Shown: positions 41,784-47,617 of the stretch, one piece after another | How the letters are laid out: each line of letters starts with the position of its first letter | Numbering within the stretch: position 1 is the stretch's first letter | NCBI RefSeq assembly: GCF_006715085.1 | Contig: NZ_VFMM01000002.1 | Span: forward strand, 186,001-250,000 | DNA from: Kribbella jejuensis | GTDB lineage: Bacteria > Actinomycetota > Actinomycetes > Propionibacteriales > Kribbellaceae | Length of the DNA: 64,000 nucleotides | Reading direction: 5' to 3' | Made by a program: the position numbers and the translations under genes | The notes under the pieces: model-generated | The model's database searches: none | The model's input: the letters and a program-made list of their open reading frames with translations, nothing else | What the model was told of the DNA's origin: nothing

Positions 41784-42998
41784 ATGGCGGACAAGCCGGT
41801 ACCCAAGCCTGGTCACTTCCTGCCCGGCGGCGACGGCCACCAGAGCACGGCAGAAACCGGCACCACGGATTCGGAAAGCCGCGGAACCGTCCCGGTGGCT
41901 CCGTTGGCGGCACCCACGCCACGGCTCGGCGGCGACCGGGAGCCGGTCCAGCCGCAGCTCTCCGGCAGCCGGCTCGACTCCCGCCGGACGACGCTGTCCG
42001 GCACCCGGTTCGGCCCGCCGGCCGCGGATGACCGAGCGGCCGCGGCGTACCGCGAGGTGTTCCACCCCGAGCCGATCCCGTTCATGCCGAAGAAGCGCTC
42101 CAAGGGCCTGGTCGCGCTGATCGTCGTCGCGGTCCTGCTCGTCGTCGGTGGCGGGGTCACGTTCGTGCTCAAGGTGCTGCCGAAGTTCGACGACTACGTC
42201 GCGAACCCGATGGGTACGCCGTCGGTGAAGTCCAGCGACGGACCGGCGACCACTGATCCGGCCGCGAAGGGCACGCCGGACGCCGACATCGTCGGAAAGA
42301 ACGCGATCTACACCGCCGGCAAGCTGGCGGTGGCGAAGTGCCAGGAGCCGGCGTTCCGCCCGACCTCCGAGGAAAACGTGCGCTCGTACTACCAGGCGCT
42401 GACCGCATGTATGGACAAAGCCTGGGAGCCGATCGTCACCAAGGCCGGGTTCACGTTCCGCTCGCCGCGGCTGATCGTGTTCGACGACGGCGAGGAGACC
42501 GCCTGCGGCGTACAGCAGGACCTCGCGCTGTACTGCCAGGACGACCAGGGCGGCAGCGTCACGATGCCGTGGCAGAAGATCGTCGAGAACTACCCGAAGC
42601 ACAAGGCGGAGACCCGCGCGGAGATGGCGCAGACCTTCAGCTTCGTGTACGGCGTACATGTCCAGAACCTGACCGGGATGGCCGAGGCCGCCGACAACCT
42701 CGCCGACACCGCCGCGAACAAGGCCGCCGAGCTCGAGGTGCACCGCCGGGCCGCGCTGCAGGCGTCCTGCTTCGGCGCGGCGTTCTTCGGCGCCGCGAAG
42801 GCGAGCTTCCCGCTCCGCGGCGAACTGCTGACGCAGTGGAACGACCTGGTCAAGCGCAGCGGCGACGAGAACTCCAAGGACAAGACCCGCGACCACGGCT
42901 CCGCCAAGAGCGTCGCACTGTGGATGAACCAGGGCTTCGCGACGACCAACCCCGGGGCCTGCAACACTTTCGTCGCAGCATCCGCGAAGGTCAGCTGA
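41784..42998 (+). CDS. Membrane-anchored zinc-peptidase paralogue without catalytic residues (pseudopeptidase)
   Basis: 404 residues, first of four tandem paralogues. About 110 residues of disordered cytoplasmic leader, one membrane helix (GLVALIVVAVLLVVGGGVTF), then the neutral zinc metallopeptidase-like domain outside. Where the paralogues read AHEYGHHVQ this one reads SFVYGVHVQ (residues 286-294): both metal His and the catalytic Glu are gone. The later ligand Glu of RRKELQAS is also lost (HRRAALQAS). Cysteines and the CNTF ending are kept. So it is very likely an inactive, but folded, partner or decoy. ATG 41784, GGGAGAAG upstream. Confidence 0.83.
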   Translation: MADKPVPKPGHFLPGGDGHQSTAETGTTDSESRGTVPVAPLAAPTPRLGGDREPVQPQLSGSRLDSRRTTLSGTRFGPPAADDRAAAAYREVFHPEPIPFMPKKRSKGLVALIVVAVLLVVGGGVTFVLKVLPKFDDYVANPMGTPSVKSSDGPATTDPAAKGTPDADIVGKNAIYTAGKLAVAKCQEPAFRPTSEENVRSYYQALTACMDKAWEPIVTKAGFTFRSPRLIVFDDGEETACGVQQDLALYCQDDQGGSVTMPWQKIVENYPKHKAETRAEMAQTFSFVYGVHVQNLTGMAEAADNLADTAANKAAELEVHRRAALQASCFGAAFFGAAKASFPLRGELLTQWNDLVKRSGDENSKDKTRDHGSAKSVALWMNQGFATTNPGACNTFVAASAKVS

Positions 42999-43016
42999 GC
43001 CAGATGGGAACGATCG

Positions 43017-44288
43017 ATGCCTGACTCCGACGAGGGCGTGCCGAAGCCGGGCCATTTCAGCACCGGCGAGCCGGCGCCAGGTAGCCGTCCGCTGACCCTG
43101 CGCTCCGCCCAGCCCGCCGGCCTCGGCAAGGCTCGCTCGGTCGCGTTCGACGAGTCGTCCGTGCGCCGCAAGGCCCGTCCGCTGCCGACCGAACCTGGCA
43201 CCGAGAGCGAGTACAGCGGTCCGCCCGCCGCACCGCTGACAGCCCCGCCCCCGACCCTCCTGACCGGCACCCGCCGCCCCGGCGGCCCCCGCCCGTCCGG
43301 CTGGCACTCGAACCCGTCCCGGGCCGGCGCCCAGTTCACCTCCGAACTGCCACCGCTGAAACCACCCCGCCAGTTCTCCCGCCCGATCATCGCGGGCCTG
43401 TCCGTTCTGGTGGTCATCATGCTGACCGCAGCCGGCATCGGCGGCTTCAAACTGGTCAACTCCTACGGCGTCCAACGCCCCCTCTCCCAACCATCGGTCA
43501 AGAAGTCCGAGGCCCCCCTCCCGCTACCCCCCGACCCGACCGTCACGGTGACGGCTACCCCGACCCCGGATGTGCAGCGCCTGCGCCAGAACGAGATCTA
43601 CACAGCCGGCCCGGTGGTGGCCGTCAGCTGCAAGGAGCCGGCTATCAAGCCGAACTCCCAGTCGGCGATCCTGCGGTACTACAAGGCACTGCTGCCCTGC
43701 CTGGACAAGGCGTGGGCGCCGGTGATCAAGCGAGCCGGCTATACCTTCCGCTCGCCGAAGGTGGTGCTGCAGACGAACCAGCCCGGCGCCAACACCGGGT
43801 GCACCGGCGAGGAGGACGTCGCCTACTACTGCGGTGTCGACGAGAGCATCAACATCAGCTGGAAGAACGACCTCAAGTACTACAAGAGCGATCCGCTCGC
43901 GGCGCGGGTGTGGATGATCGACACGATGGCCCACGAGTACGGCCACCACGTCCAGGAGATGACCGAGATGCTCACGGCTGCCTGGTCGCGCGAAGGCTGG
44001 GCGAAGACCAAGGCCGAGGAACTCGACTGGACCCGCCGCAAGGAACTGCAGGCGACCTGCTTCGGGGCTGCGTTCCTGGGTGCCAACAAGAAGTCCCTCG
44101 GCCTGTCCGGCAACAAGCTGAAGATCTGGCAGTGGGAAGCCCAGCACACCGGCGACGAGTACAACCCGAAGAAGATCCGCGACCACGGCTCCCGCAAGAA
44201 CAACTGGGCCTGGTCCGCCCCCGCCTTCACCAGCGCCAACCCCAGCTCCTGCAACACCTTCAAAGCCCCCGCCGCCAAGGTCAGCTGA
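43017..44288 (+). CDS. Membrane-anchored neutral zinc metallopeptidase
   Basis: 423 residues, second of the four paralogues. Cytoplasmic Pro-rich leader that shares the opening PKPGHF with the first paralogue, membrane helix PIIAGLSVLVVIMLTAAGIG (near 123), then the external peptidase domain with HEYGH at residues 306-310 and RRKELQATCFGAAFLGA about 38 residues later (Glu as probable third zinc ligand). Conserved Cys and the ending CNTFKAPAAKVS. Should cleave peptides at the cell surface. Its stop shares one base with the next start. Confidence 0.88.
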   Translation: MPDSDEGVPKPGHFSTGEPAPGSRPLTLRSAQPAGLGKARSVAFDESSVRRKARPLPTEPGTESEYSGPPAAPLTAPPPTLLTGTRRPGGPRPSGWHSNPSRAGAQFTSELPPLKPPRQFSRPIIAGLSVLVVIMLTAAGIGGFKLVNSYGVQRPLSQPSVKKSEAPLPLPPDPTVTVTATPTPDVQRLRQNEIYTAGPVVAVSCKEPAIKPNSQSAILRYYKALLPCLDKAWAPVIKRAGYTFRSPKVVLQTNQPGANTGCTGEEDVAYYCGVDESINISWKNDLKYYKSDPLAARVWMIDTMAHEYGHHVQEMTEMLTAAWSREGWAKTKAEELDWTRRKELQATCFGAAFLGANKKSLGLSGNKLKIWQWEAQHTGDEYNPKKIRDHGSRKNNWAWSAPAFTSANPSSCNTFKAPAAKVS

Positions 44289-45193
44289 TGCGCCGTTGGG
44301 GGGCGGTGGGGTTGCTCGTCGTGCTGGCTACGACGGCTTGCGGCGCTACGACGCCGGTTGCGGTGGGCACGCCGTCTGTGTCGACAGCCCCGACACCGAC
44401 ACCCACCCCGATCCGGACACCGACCCCGACGCCGGTGAAGGTGACGACGCCGTCGGATCCGATCACGTACGGCATGACCGAAGGCGTCGTACGCAACAAG
44501 CTCTACACGGCCGGCAAGGTGTCCGTGATGCGATGTGCGTTGCCACGGCCTGAACTGACGACGAAGACCGGTCTGCTGGCGTACGGCAAGGTGCTGGTGG
44601 CGTGCATGAGCAAGGCGTGGGCACCGCTGGTGCAGAAGTCCGACGCGGTCCTCGCCGACGTCGAACTGATCGCATACAGCGCGCGGCACCCGAAGGCGAC
44701 GCCGGAGTGCACGGATCCGCCCGCGTATGCGGACGCGTTCTACTACTTCGGCGGGTTCACAGGGAAGATCTGCTTCGACGCCGACACCTTCCTCGGCTCG
44801 CGGGACCAGGAGTTCAACCTCGTCGACTTCGAGCAGTTGATCGCGCACGAGTACGGGCACCACGTGCAGTACTCGGTCGGGATCCTGACGCTGTACGACG
44901 AGCTCATGCGCGGGAAGTCTCCGGCCGGGCAGTACGAGGTGATGCGACGCAAGGAGTTGCAGGCGAGCTGCCTCGGCGCCGCGTTCCTCGGCGCGAACAG
45001 GCGACTCTTCGGGCTGTCCGGTGAGCGGCTCAGCGACTGGCGGTACGTCGTCAACCACGTGGGCGACGAGTACAGCAAGGTCCGTGACCACGGCTCCCGC
45101 AAGAACCACGCCTACTGGACGACGCACGCCTTCACTGCAGCAGATCCCAAGGCCTGCAACACGTTCACCGCGCCTGCCGGGAAGGTGGCCTGA
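44288..45193 (+). CDS. Neutral zinc metallopeptidase lipoprotein
   Basis: 301 residues, third paralogue. ATG 44288 shares its A with the previous TGA; longer in-frame sequence upstream lies on that gene. Lipoprotein signal MRRWGAVGLLVVLATTAC (Cys18), then a Thr/Pro linker (TPTPTPIRTPTPTPV) and the peptidase domain: HEYGH at 187-191, RRKELQASCLGAAFLGA, ending CNTFTAPAGKVA. Anchored by lipid where the first two use a membrane helix. Confidence 0.88.
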   Translation: MRRWGAVGLLVVLATTACGATTPVAVGTPSVSTAPTPTPTPIRTPTPTPVKVTTPSDPITYGMTEGVVRNKLYTAGKVSVMRCALPRPELTTKTGLLAYGKVLVACMSKAWAPLVQKSDAVLADVELIAYSARHPKATPECTDPPAYADAFYYFGGFTGKICFDADTFLGSRDQEFNLVDFEQLIAHEYGHHVQYSVGILTLYDELMRGKSPAGQYEVMRRKELQASCLGAAFLGANRRLFGLSGERLSDWRYVVNHVGDEYSKVRDHGSRKNHAYWTTHAFTAADPKACNTFTAPAGKVA

Positions 45194-45196
45194 GGC

Positions 45197-46084
45197 GTGC
45201 GTGCGGGGGCACTGGTTGTTGGGCTGGTGCTGGTTGTTGGTGGGTGTTCACCGGTGGCTGTAGCGCCGCCGGTCGATACGCCGACCAGTGTGCCGACTCG
45301 GGTGCGGCCTACCCCGACACATACACCTACGCCGGCTCCGGCGAAGGTGACTGCTTCCATGTCGTTGGAGGAGACCTATCTGCTGCACAACAAGGTCTAC
45401 TCGGCTGGGCGGGTGGCGGCGGTTTCGTGTCGGTTGCCGGATAGTGGGTTGGTGTCGCGGAAGGACGTGCGGCTGTACGCGAACGCAGTGCTGGACTGTC
45501 TGCAGCGGGCCTGGAAGCCCGTCGTGGAGCGGGCGGACGTCGTATACCAGCCGACGAAGGTGTATGTCGTCGACGACGGTGACCGGACCGCGTGTGGGCC
45601 GTTCAACGAGGATGATGCGGACGCGTTCTACTGCGACGGGAACACCGGCATCTACCTCGGATGGAAGGATCACGTCGCGGACGAGGACTACCCGAAGGTG
45701 TGGGCGCAGACCTATCTGCAGTTCGTGATGGCGCACGAGTTCGGGCACCACGTGCAGCAGTTGGTCGGCATCTCGACGTACTACGACGACCGCTGGGACC
45801 GCACCAAGGGTTCGGCCCAGCTCGAGCAGACCCGCCGCCTCGAACTACAGGCAACCTGCTTCGCCGCAGCCTTCCTCGGCGCGAACCAGGACACCCTGAA
45901 CCTGCACGGCGCACGTCTCGCGGCCTACCATGACGCGGCGTACGTCGGCGACGAGGACGACCCGTCCGCCCCCCACGACCACGGCTCCAGCAAAAGCAGC
46001 ACCTACTGGTCCGACGCAGCCTTCACCACCAAGTCCCCCGCATCCTGCAACACCTGGTCCGCCCCACCCAAACGAGTCGCCTGA
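45197..46084 (+). CDS. Neutral zinc metallopeptidase lipoprotein
   Basis: 295 residues, fourth paralogue, GTG 45197 three bases after the previous gene. Lipoprotein signal with lipobox VVGGC (Cys17), Pro/Thr linker (RPTPTHTPTPAPAK), and HEFGH at 180-184 with RRLELQATCFAAAFLGA after it. Ends CNTWSAPPKRVA. All four genes have the same Cys pattern and C-terminus, so they come from repeated duplication. Confidence 0.88.
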   Translation: MRAGALVVGLVLVVGGCSPVAVAPPVDTPTSVPTRVRPTPTHTPTPAPAKVTASMSLEETYLLHNKVYSAGRVAAVSCRLPDSGLVSRKDVRLYANAVLDCLQRAWKPVVERADVVYQPTKVYVVDDGDRTACGPFNEDDADAFYCDGNTGIYLGWKDHVADEDYPKVWAQTYLQFVMAHEFGHHVQQLVGISTYYDDRWDRTKGSAQLEQTRRLELQATCFAAAFLGANQDTLNLHGARLAAYHDAAYVGDEDDPSAPHDHGSSKSSTYWSDAAFTTKSPASCNTWSAPPKRVA

Positions 46085-46088
46085 CGCG

Positions 46089-46544
46089 TTACCGGAGTTT
46101 GAGTTTGAAGCCTTCGTGGGTGTTTTCGAAGCCTAGGTTGGTGTAGAAGCGGTGGGCGTCGGTGCGGGACTTGTCCGAGGTGAGTTGGACGAGGGTGCAG
46201 CCGCGGTTGCGGGATTCCTCGACGGCCCATCGGATCAGGGTGGTGCCGAGGCCGGAGCCGCGGGCGGGGGCGGCGACCCGGACGGCCTCGATCAGGCCGC
46301 GGGTGGAGCCGCGGCGGGACAGGCCGGGGATGATCGTCAGCTGCAGCGTACCGATCACCTCGTCGTTGCGTTCGGCAACCACCAGCAGCTGGTTGGGGTC
46401 GGCGTCGATCTGCTCGAAGGCGGCCAGGTACGGCGTCAGGTCGTCGGTGGACTCACGGGTCGCGCCGAGCTGGTCGTCGGCGATCATCGCGACGATCGGG
46501 CGGACGTCGGCGGCGGTGGCGCGGCGGATGACGAGATCGTTCAT
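46089..46544 (-). CDS. GNAT-family N-acetyltransferase
   Basis: 151 residues, single GNAT domain. Starts LVIRRATAADVRPIVAMIAD; acetyl-CoA binding motif A is APARGSGLGTTLIRWAVEES (R/Q-X2-G-X-G/A form, near 90-109); ends with HRFYTNLGFENTHEGFKL, the usual motif B close. Acceptor unknown. It converges with the peptidase array, 4 bases between stops. Confidence 0.9.
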   Translation of the reverse strand: MNDLVIRRATAADVRPIVAMIADDQLGATRESTDDLTPYLAAFEQIDADPNQLLVVAERNDEVIGTLQLTIIPGLSRRGSTRGLIEAVRVAAPARGSGLGTTLIRWAVEESRNRGCTLVQLTSDKSRTDAHRFYTNLGFENTHEGFKLKLR

Positions 46545-46661
46545 CTGCCCAGGATCGCAAACCCCTGAAGCGGTTCAGCTCGCGGGGGTAAGGAGCGAAG
46601 TACGGCTTGAGTGATTGCCTTACGCAAACACTTTTCGTTGTACGCCTCGCCGTACGCCGTT

Positions 46662-46686
46662 GTTTGCCTCAGGCATCAAGGGGTAC
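46662..46686 (+). promoter_or_regulatory. Stress-sigma-type promoter GTTT-N15-GGGTAC
   Basis: GTTT at 46662-46665 and GGGTAC at 46681-46686 are 15 bases apart, exactly the layout found before the gas vesicle operon. It lies 97 bases before ATG 46784, leaving a leader of about 90 bases in which I recognise no riboswitch. Confidence 0.55.
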
Positions 46687-46783
46687 GAGTGATACTGGAC
46701 ACCACTGCATCCGCCCGTGCCGGGGTTGGGGCAGTCACGTGCGCCGACAGCGGATGCGGGCCAAGTCCTGGAAAGGTTATCCG

Positions 46784-47617
46784 ATGTCAGCGTTAGCTAT
46801 CGATTTCACCCAGCCGTTCGAGAACGCGTTCAGCAAACTGCTGTCGTTCATCCCGAACCTGCTCGGTGGCCTGGTCATCCTGGTGATCGGGTACTTCGTC
46901 GCGAAGGTGCTCGGCAAACTCGTCGGCAAGCTGCTCGGCCGGGTCGGCTTCGACCACTGGATGGACCGGGCCGGCGTCTCCGGGGTACTGCAACGGTCGG
47001 GCACGGGGCTGACCGCGTCGGCGGTACTCGGCAAGGTCGTGTTCTGGTTCGTGTTCCTGATCAGCTTCACGATGTTCGCCTCCGCACTCGGCGTGCCGGA
47101 GATCTCGAACTTCATGAGCGACATGCTCGGCTACATCCCGCGGATCTTCGCCGCGATCGTGATCGTCTGCCTGGCGGCGCTGTTCGCGAACTTCCTGGCG
47201 GCGATCATCCGCGGTGCCACCGGCAACGAGACGCTGGCCAAGGTGGCGCGGTACGCCGTTCTCGTGTACGCCGCGTTCGCCGCGCTGACCCAGCTCGGTG
47301 TGGCGGTCCAGCTGACCGGTAACACCCTGCTGATCGTCCTCGGGGGCGCTGCACTCGCCGTCGGCCTCGCTTTCGGCCTCGGGGGCCGCGAGATGGCCGG
47401 CCGCGCACTGGCCAACCTGTTCGACAAGGACAAGATGGTCAAGTCCAGCGACCACAACGGCACCATGGACGGCACGACGGCCGCCTACCCGACCCAGGGC
47501 AACTACCAGGGCAACTACCAGCAGCCCACCCAACCCGAACAACACCACGCCGCCCACAGCGCCGGCACCTGGTCCAACGGCACAGGCCAAAACGGCAACT
47601 GGCCACAAGGTCAGTAA
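46784..47617 (+). CDS. Mechanosensitive-channel-like membrane protein (conserved TM helix family, CmpX-like)
   Basis: 277 residues, ATG 46784 with GAAAGG 7 bases upstream. Several membrane helices: LLGGLVILVIGYFVAKVLGK, VVFWFVFLISFTMFASALGV, IPRIFAAIVIVCLAALFANF, then LIVLGGAALAVGLAFGLGGR, whose Gly/Ala spacing resembles the pore helix of MscS and the small conserved TM-helix repeat. The last 50 residues are Gln/Asn/His-rich and disordered. Probably helps in osmotic or envelope stress; the promoter supports that. Confidence 0.85.
   Translation: MSALAIDFTQPFENAFSKLLSFIPNLLGGLVILVIGYFVAKVLGKLVGKLLGRVGFDHWMDRAGVSGVLQRSGTGLTASAVLGKVVFWFVFLISFTMFASALGVPEISNFMSDMLGYIPRIFAAIVIVCLAALFANFLAAIIRGATGNETLAKVARYAVLVYAAFAALTQLGVAVQLTGNTLLIVLGGAALAVGLAFGLGGREMAGRALANLFDKDKMVKSSDHNGTMDGTTAAYPTQGNYQGNYQQPTQPEQHHAAHSAGTWSNGTGQNGNWPQGQ

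Follow-up and report, generated by a model that had tools for sequence, protein, structure and literature searches.

Four paralogous genes of the PF04228 peptidase family lie head to tail at positions 41784-46084 of the window (the whole stretch of 64,000 nucleotides that was analysed, corresponding to positions 186001-250000 of contig C2 in the 7.5 Mb Kribbella genome G000), and the first of them, G1, encodes a protein without the zinc site that the other three keep. This raises the question of whether G1 is a duplicate on its way out or an inactive peptidase that selection has kept and, if it has been kept, what such a protein might do beside its live neighbors. The features referred to throughout are as follows:

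41784..42998, + strand: G1, pseudopeptidase with the PF04228 fold; 404 aa, with cytoplasmic tail, one TM helix (about residues 107-130) and ectodomain
41802..41819, + strand: PKPGHF cytoplasmic tag of G1 (PKPGHFLPGG in most species)
42642..42659, + strand: former HEYGHH site of G1, now FVYGVH (residues 287-292)
42753..42755, + strand: codon of Ala324 in G1, formerly the third zinc ligand (Glu of RRxELQA)
43017..44288, + strand: G2, live PF04228 paralogue; 423 aa, one TM helix, HEYGHH and RRKELQA
43041..43058, + strand: PKPGHF cytoplasmic tag of G2 (exact match in the genome)
44288..45193, + strand: G3, predicted lipoprotein and live PF04228 paralogue; 301 aa, HEYGHH and RRKELQA
45197..46084, + strand: G4, predicted lipoprotein and live PF04228 paralogue; 295 aa, GTG start, HEFGHH and RRLELQA

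The array and its family

The position, order and tight spacing of the four genes, as described in the initial annotation, agree with the open reading frame boundaries: 18 bases separate G1 from G2, G2 and G3 overlap by one base (TGATG) and three bases lie between G3 and G4 (gaps of 18, -1 and 3). The division into two helix-held and two lipid-held proteins also holds, as G1 and G2 present one TM helix each (19-residue mean hydropathy of 2.8 and 2.5, respectively), and as the N-termini of G3 and G4, read from the sequence, are lipobox-like (LATTAC and LVVGGC). Downstream of the array, a divergent GNAT gene (46089-46544, minus strand) is followed by a gene resembling mechanosensitive channels with a conserved TM helix (window positions 46607-47617). 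These flanking genes, together with a methyltransferase gene, gave no lead on function.

All four proteins score above the curated PF04228 cut-off of 23.2 bits (48, 46.1, 39.9 and 64 bits for G1, G2, G3 and G4, respectively). They thus share the Pfam domain of YpfJ/KPN_02809 (PF04228; NF050010), and G2-G4 keep its HExGHH motif and later Glu, whereas G1 has no zinc site. None of the array proteins has YpfJ equivalog status, with NF050010 scores of 40-75 bits, far below 250. The genome encodes a separate, canonical YpfJ at C3:932563 (255 bits), one of its 12 PF04228 members. Four further live PF04228 paralogues, encoded by long reading frames, form a second group at G000:C2:95000-114000 (L088).

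As previously claimed, three of the genes retain the HEYGH or HEFGH motif and the later Glu, with G2, G3 and G4 all presenting HE(Y/F)GHH and the later motif RR(K/K/L)ELQA(T/S/T)C, and the first gene has lost all four residues. In G1, the HExxH motif is absent (FVYGV) and the later motif reads RRAALQASC. The claim that the membrane anchor, cysteine pattern and CNTF end were nonetheless kept was also found to be correct: G1 contains the TM helix, the CNTF end and all six cysteines (186, 209, 241, 251, 329 and 393), which are invariant across its orthologues.

Loss of the zinc site across the genus

Our genus sample comprised 38 Kribbella genomes, including that of the array itself. A G1 orthologue is found in 35 of these (48-81% identity over most of the length), and all named relatives of G1 belong to Kribbella. 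An alignment over the whole or nearly the whole sequence was possible for 34 of these orthologues, referred to here as readable. The 35th, in G005, is split by a frameshift (draft assembly; L083:5773-7094), with the downstream part being dead in the same way; the data fit either a recent mutation or a sequencing error.

In each of the 34 readable orthologues, HExxH is absent, F/Y-x-Y-G/A/S-x-H replaces HEYGHH and RRx(A/S)LQA replaces RRxELQA. The first His is exchanged for Phe or Tyr, the Glu for Val, Met, Ala or Leu, the second His for Val, Ala, Leu or Ile, and the third-ligand Glu for Ala or Ser; no change is seen in the neighboring Tyr, the His at the sixth position or the Gln. The loss is genus-wide and not specific to this strain, the latter being a finding that would have spoken against the retention of a pseudoenzyme. 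As a reference for the remainder of the protein, we considered the 25 columns in which conservation reaches at least 98% among 76 live paralogues. G1 keeps 20 of these and has lost five, namely those at H287, E288, H291, E324 and I259 (G1 numbering). A random pick of five from 25 would take in all four catalytic/zinc positions with p ~4e-4, although it should be noted that the columns changed in one ancestral lineage.

As G1 has none of the four zinc/catalytic residues left, and as a change of the first His nearly abolishes activity in this family, proteolysis by G1 is very unlikely. Indeed, KPN_02809 with His171 changed to Ser shows almost no activity and contains only ~0.4 mol zinc per mol (PMC3269727). 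One could still suppose that G1 is able to catalyze another reaction or to bind a metal through its retained H292, R321 and R322, as these residues, along with Q294 and Q326, are conserved in its orthologues. The same residues are, however, conserved in the live paralogues and so look structural, while all four zinc/catalytic positions are now hydrophobic or small and the nearly inactive, zinc-poor KPN_02809 variant argues in the same direction. We thus consider such chemistry highly improbable.

Under the GY+F3X4 codon model, omega is 0.137 for G1 and 0.094 for G2. For G1, lnL is -14935.99 vs -15989.93 at omega = 1, such that omega = 1 loses 1,054 log-likelihood units. Pairwise NG86 estimates of omega (~0.5 for both genes) were dropped, as these are probably inflated by the strong third-position GC bias. 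As G1 is dead in all readable orthologues and as omega = 1 is rejected, G1 is an old pseudoenzyme under purifying selection, and relaxed selection, which the initial annotation had proposed to look for by dN/dS in relatives, is not what the relatives show.

That G1 is instead a decaying duplicate on its way out is therefore strongly disfavored. Some observations do lean towards decay: omega is somewhat higher in G1 than in G2, G1 is frameshifted in G005, no G1 was found in two of the 38 genomes (G008 and G031), and in G030 (L086:2335-2733) only a relic is left, consisting of the cytoplasmic tail, the TM helix and a short C-terminal piece, with most of the ectodomain deleted. Against this stand the 34 readable orthologues, which contain no internal stop or frameshift across 48-81% identity, the low omega and the invariance of cysteines and fold residues. 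The argument from retention against simple decay, made earlier from a single sequence, thus extends to the genus, where the dead gene has been kept under purifying selection. As for frameshifts in relatives, the expectation of intact frames was confirmed for these 34, yet one frameshift and one relic among 38 genomes indicate that G1 is not indispensable everywhere.

With the catalytic columns left out of the tree, G1 forms a single clade with a support of 100, and the same tree calls for at least three changes from live to dead, one each in the G1 ancestor, in gene 2 of G035 and in the fourth gene of G004. In G1, all four zinc-site residues (His, Glu, His, Glu) were lost once, in the ancestor, and replaced by hydrophobic or small residues. 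Gene 2 of G035 (L067:3684-5153), which lies beside a G1 that is dead and a third gene that is live, has independently lost the full zinc site in an open frame (GMYGYHVQ and RRRGLQSDC). The third independent loss, in the fourth gene of G004 (L072:3236-4180; GLYGYHVQ and KRYQIQARC), led to a strikingly similar outcome. Outside the genus, the best-matching relative, found in G053 (43% identity), is live (HEYGH), and sampling of other genera in the order gave no G1-level match. Together, these sequence comparisons point to an origin of G1 within Kribbella.

The conserved part of the array

The initial annotation suggested a hetero-complex of all four proteins and proposed a search for the same four-gene array in relatives. 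G2 is present in 38 of 38 Kribbella genomes and contains HEY(G/A/S)HH in all except G035. A first motif search had given gene 2 as dead in nine genomes; this was rejected once the alignment showed that eight of these present HEYAHH or HEYSHH, i.e., an intact HExxH, leaving only G035. Wherever the two genes are found on one contig, G1 is immediately followed by G2, and this order is never reversed (in G001, both lie near contig ends). G1 without G2 was found in none of the 38 genomes, while three genomes (G008, G030 and G031) contain G2 but no intact G1. Behind the pair, zero to three further paralogues are found, some of them lipoproteins and some with a membrane helix, which are not one-to-one orthologues between species. 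G3 and G4 belong to this variable set. As the downstream paralogues vary and turn over, while the G1-G2 order is fixed, the conserved unit is the pair and not the four genes, and the four-protein complex is not supported as proposed.

A dead and a live paralogue encoded together, as in active/pseudo pairs, is what G1 and G2 present. The distances among G1 and among G2 sequences are correlated (Spearman 0.84), although shared ancestry alone would give the same. In both proteins, the cytoplasmic tail also contains the PKPGHF tag close to its start; the 7.5 Mb genome has exactly two exact matches to this tag, in G1 and in G2, and its DNA pattern is missing from all 73 genomes that were sampled from other genera of the order. 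The tag is near-invariant in G1 orthologues and degenerate in G2 of many species. A third match coding for GHFLPGG (C2:562342) was taken as chance, being antisense to a listed open reading frame.

What G1 may do beside G2

The AlphaFold2 ectodomain models of G1 and G2 are confident (pLDDT of 91.3 and 91.8, respectively; pTM of 0.85 each) and present the same order of secondary structure elements. As the alignment for the G1 model included live paralogues, the model shows compatibility with the fold and should not be taken to prove that G1 folds. Neither a PDB sequence search with G2 nor a fold search with both models at E 0.001 returned a solved relative. Compared with G2, G1 shows stronger conservation of the sheet and loop region 217-253 (the top window; p 0.014 by column permutation), and positions such as G257, F342, P343 and L348 are among those invariant specifically in G1. 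The conservation of this region, the fold, the anchor and the tail would fit a protein that binds.

What G1 would bind, and for whom, can be considered in several ways. G1 could be a stand-alone surface receptor, the old cleft of which would bind a peptide or envelope ligand and signal through the helix and PKPGHF tail, with no G2 complex. Its own conserved tail and helix, the G1-specific invariant positions and the more conserved sheet and loop region are in line with such a role, which we regard as a possibility of limited weight, as every G1 found is accompanied by a G2 and the tail is common to both proteins. Alternatively, G1 could act as a decoy or inhibitor, titrating substrate or capping the G2 cleft and so lowering proteolysis. 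Here, G1 does have the same fold and compartment as G2, and it has been proposed that inactive zincins serve as decoys or accessory proteins (survey of HExxH peptidases, PMC3650047). Still, G1 contains no recognizable inhibitory element, and since its gene lies in the same compact array, upstream of that of its target, the two proteins would be produced at the same time, making this role unlikely.

The reading that we favor, at roughly even chances, is that G1 is an old, selected pseudopeptidase that most likely works with the live G2, encoded next to it, as a partner that does not itself cut, in the manner of TldD/TldE. We infer the partnership from synteny, the shared tail and the shared compartment. 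The two proteins would be neighbors in the membrane, with both ectodomains facing outwards; the shared tail would perhaps dock both on one cytoplasmic factor; and, in the way that TldE acts for TldD, G1 would either bind the substrate or give the G2 cleft its shape, leaving the cutting to G2. The downstream lipoprotein peptidases would then be fast-evolving additional enzymes rather than fixed subunits. It should be considered that the two genes could lie next to each other simply because they arose by tandem duplication, that G2 does not strictly need G1, given the three genomes in which it lacks an intact one, and that gene 2 of G035 is itself without a zinc site while its gene 3 is live. 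More speculatively, and with a probability that we would put well below even, the two may form a Kribbella-specific, membrane-anchored live/dead pair in which the dead subunit selects substrates and both dock through PKPGHF onto an inner factor, coupling surface proteolysis to the cytoplasm.

TldD/TldE serves as a working model for the pair, as it likewise combines a live zinc peptidase with a paralogue lacking the catalytic center and is active only with both subunits (PMC5810440). It differs, however, in its HExxxH motif and unrelated fold, and in that the heterodimer is proven for TldD/TldE while being inferred for G1-G2. The iRhom pseudoproteases (PMC6451368) are, like G1, membrane-anchored, conserved and dead relatives of proteases, and regulate an active protease; unlike G1, they present a multi-pass rhomboid fold, are found in animals and have a partner from another protease family. 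In inactive zincins (ADAMs and the CLCA family), HExxH is likewise replaced non-randomly, sometimes by hydrophobic residues, although these belong to other families, and PF04228 is not discussed in the pertinent section of the HExxH peptidase survey (PMC3650047). The survey describes the roles of inactive zincins as not well understood.

PF04228 is widespread, yet we found little literature on the family, and a genus-wide pseudopeptidase with a live twin is, as far as our searches reach, new for it. A paralogue that became inactive once, long ago, and has stayed under purifying selection beside its live twin offers a compact two-gene system in which to probe the role of such proteins, with built-in controls in the natural losses of G1 (G030, G008 and G031) and in the two independent losses of the zinc site (gene 2 of G035 and the fourth gene of G004).
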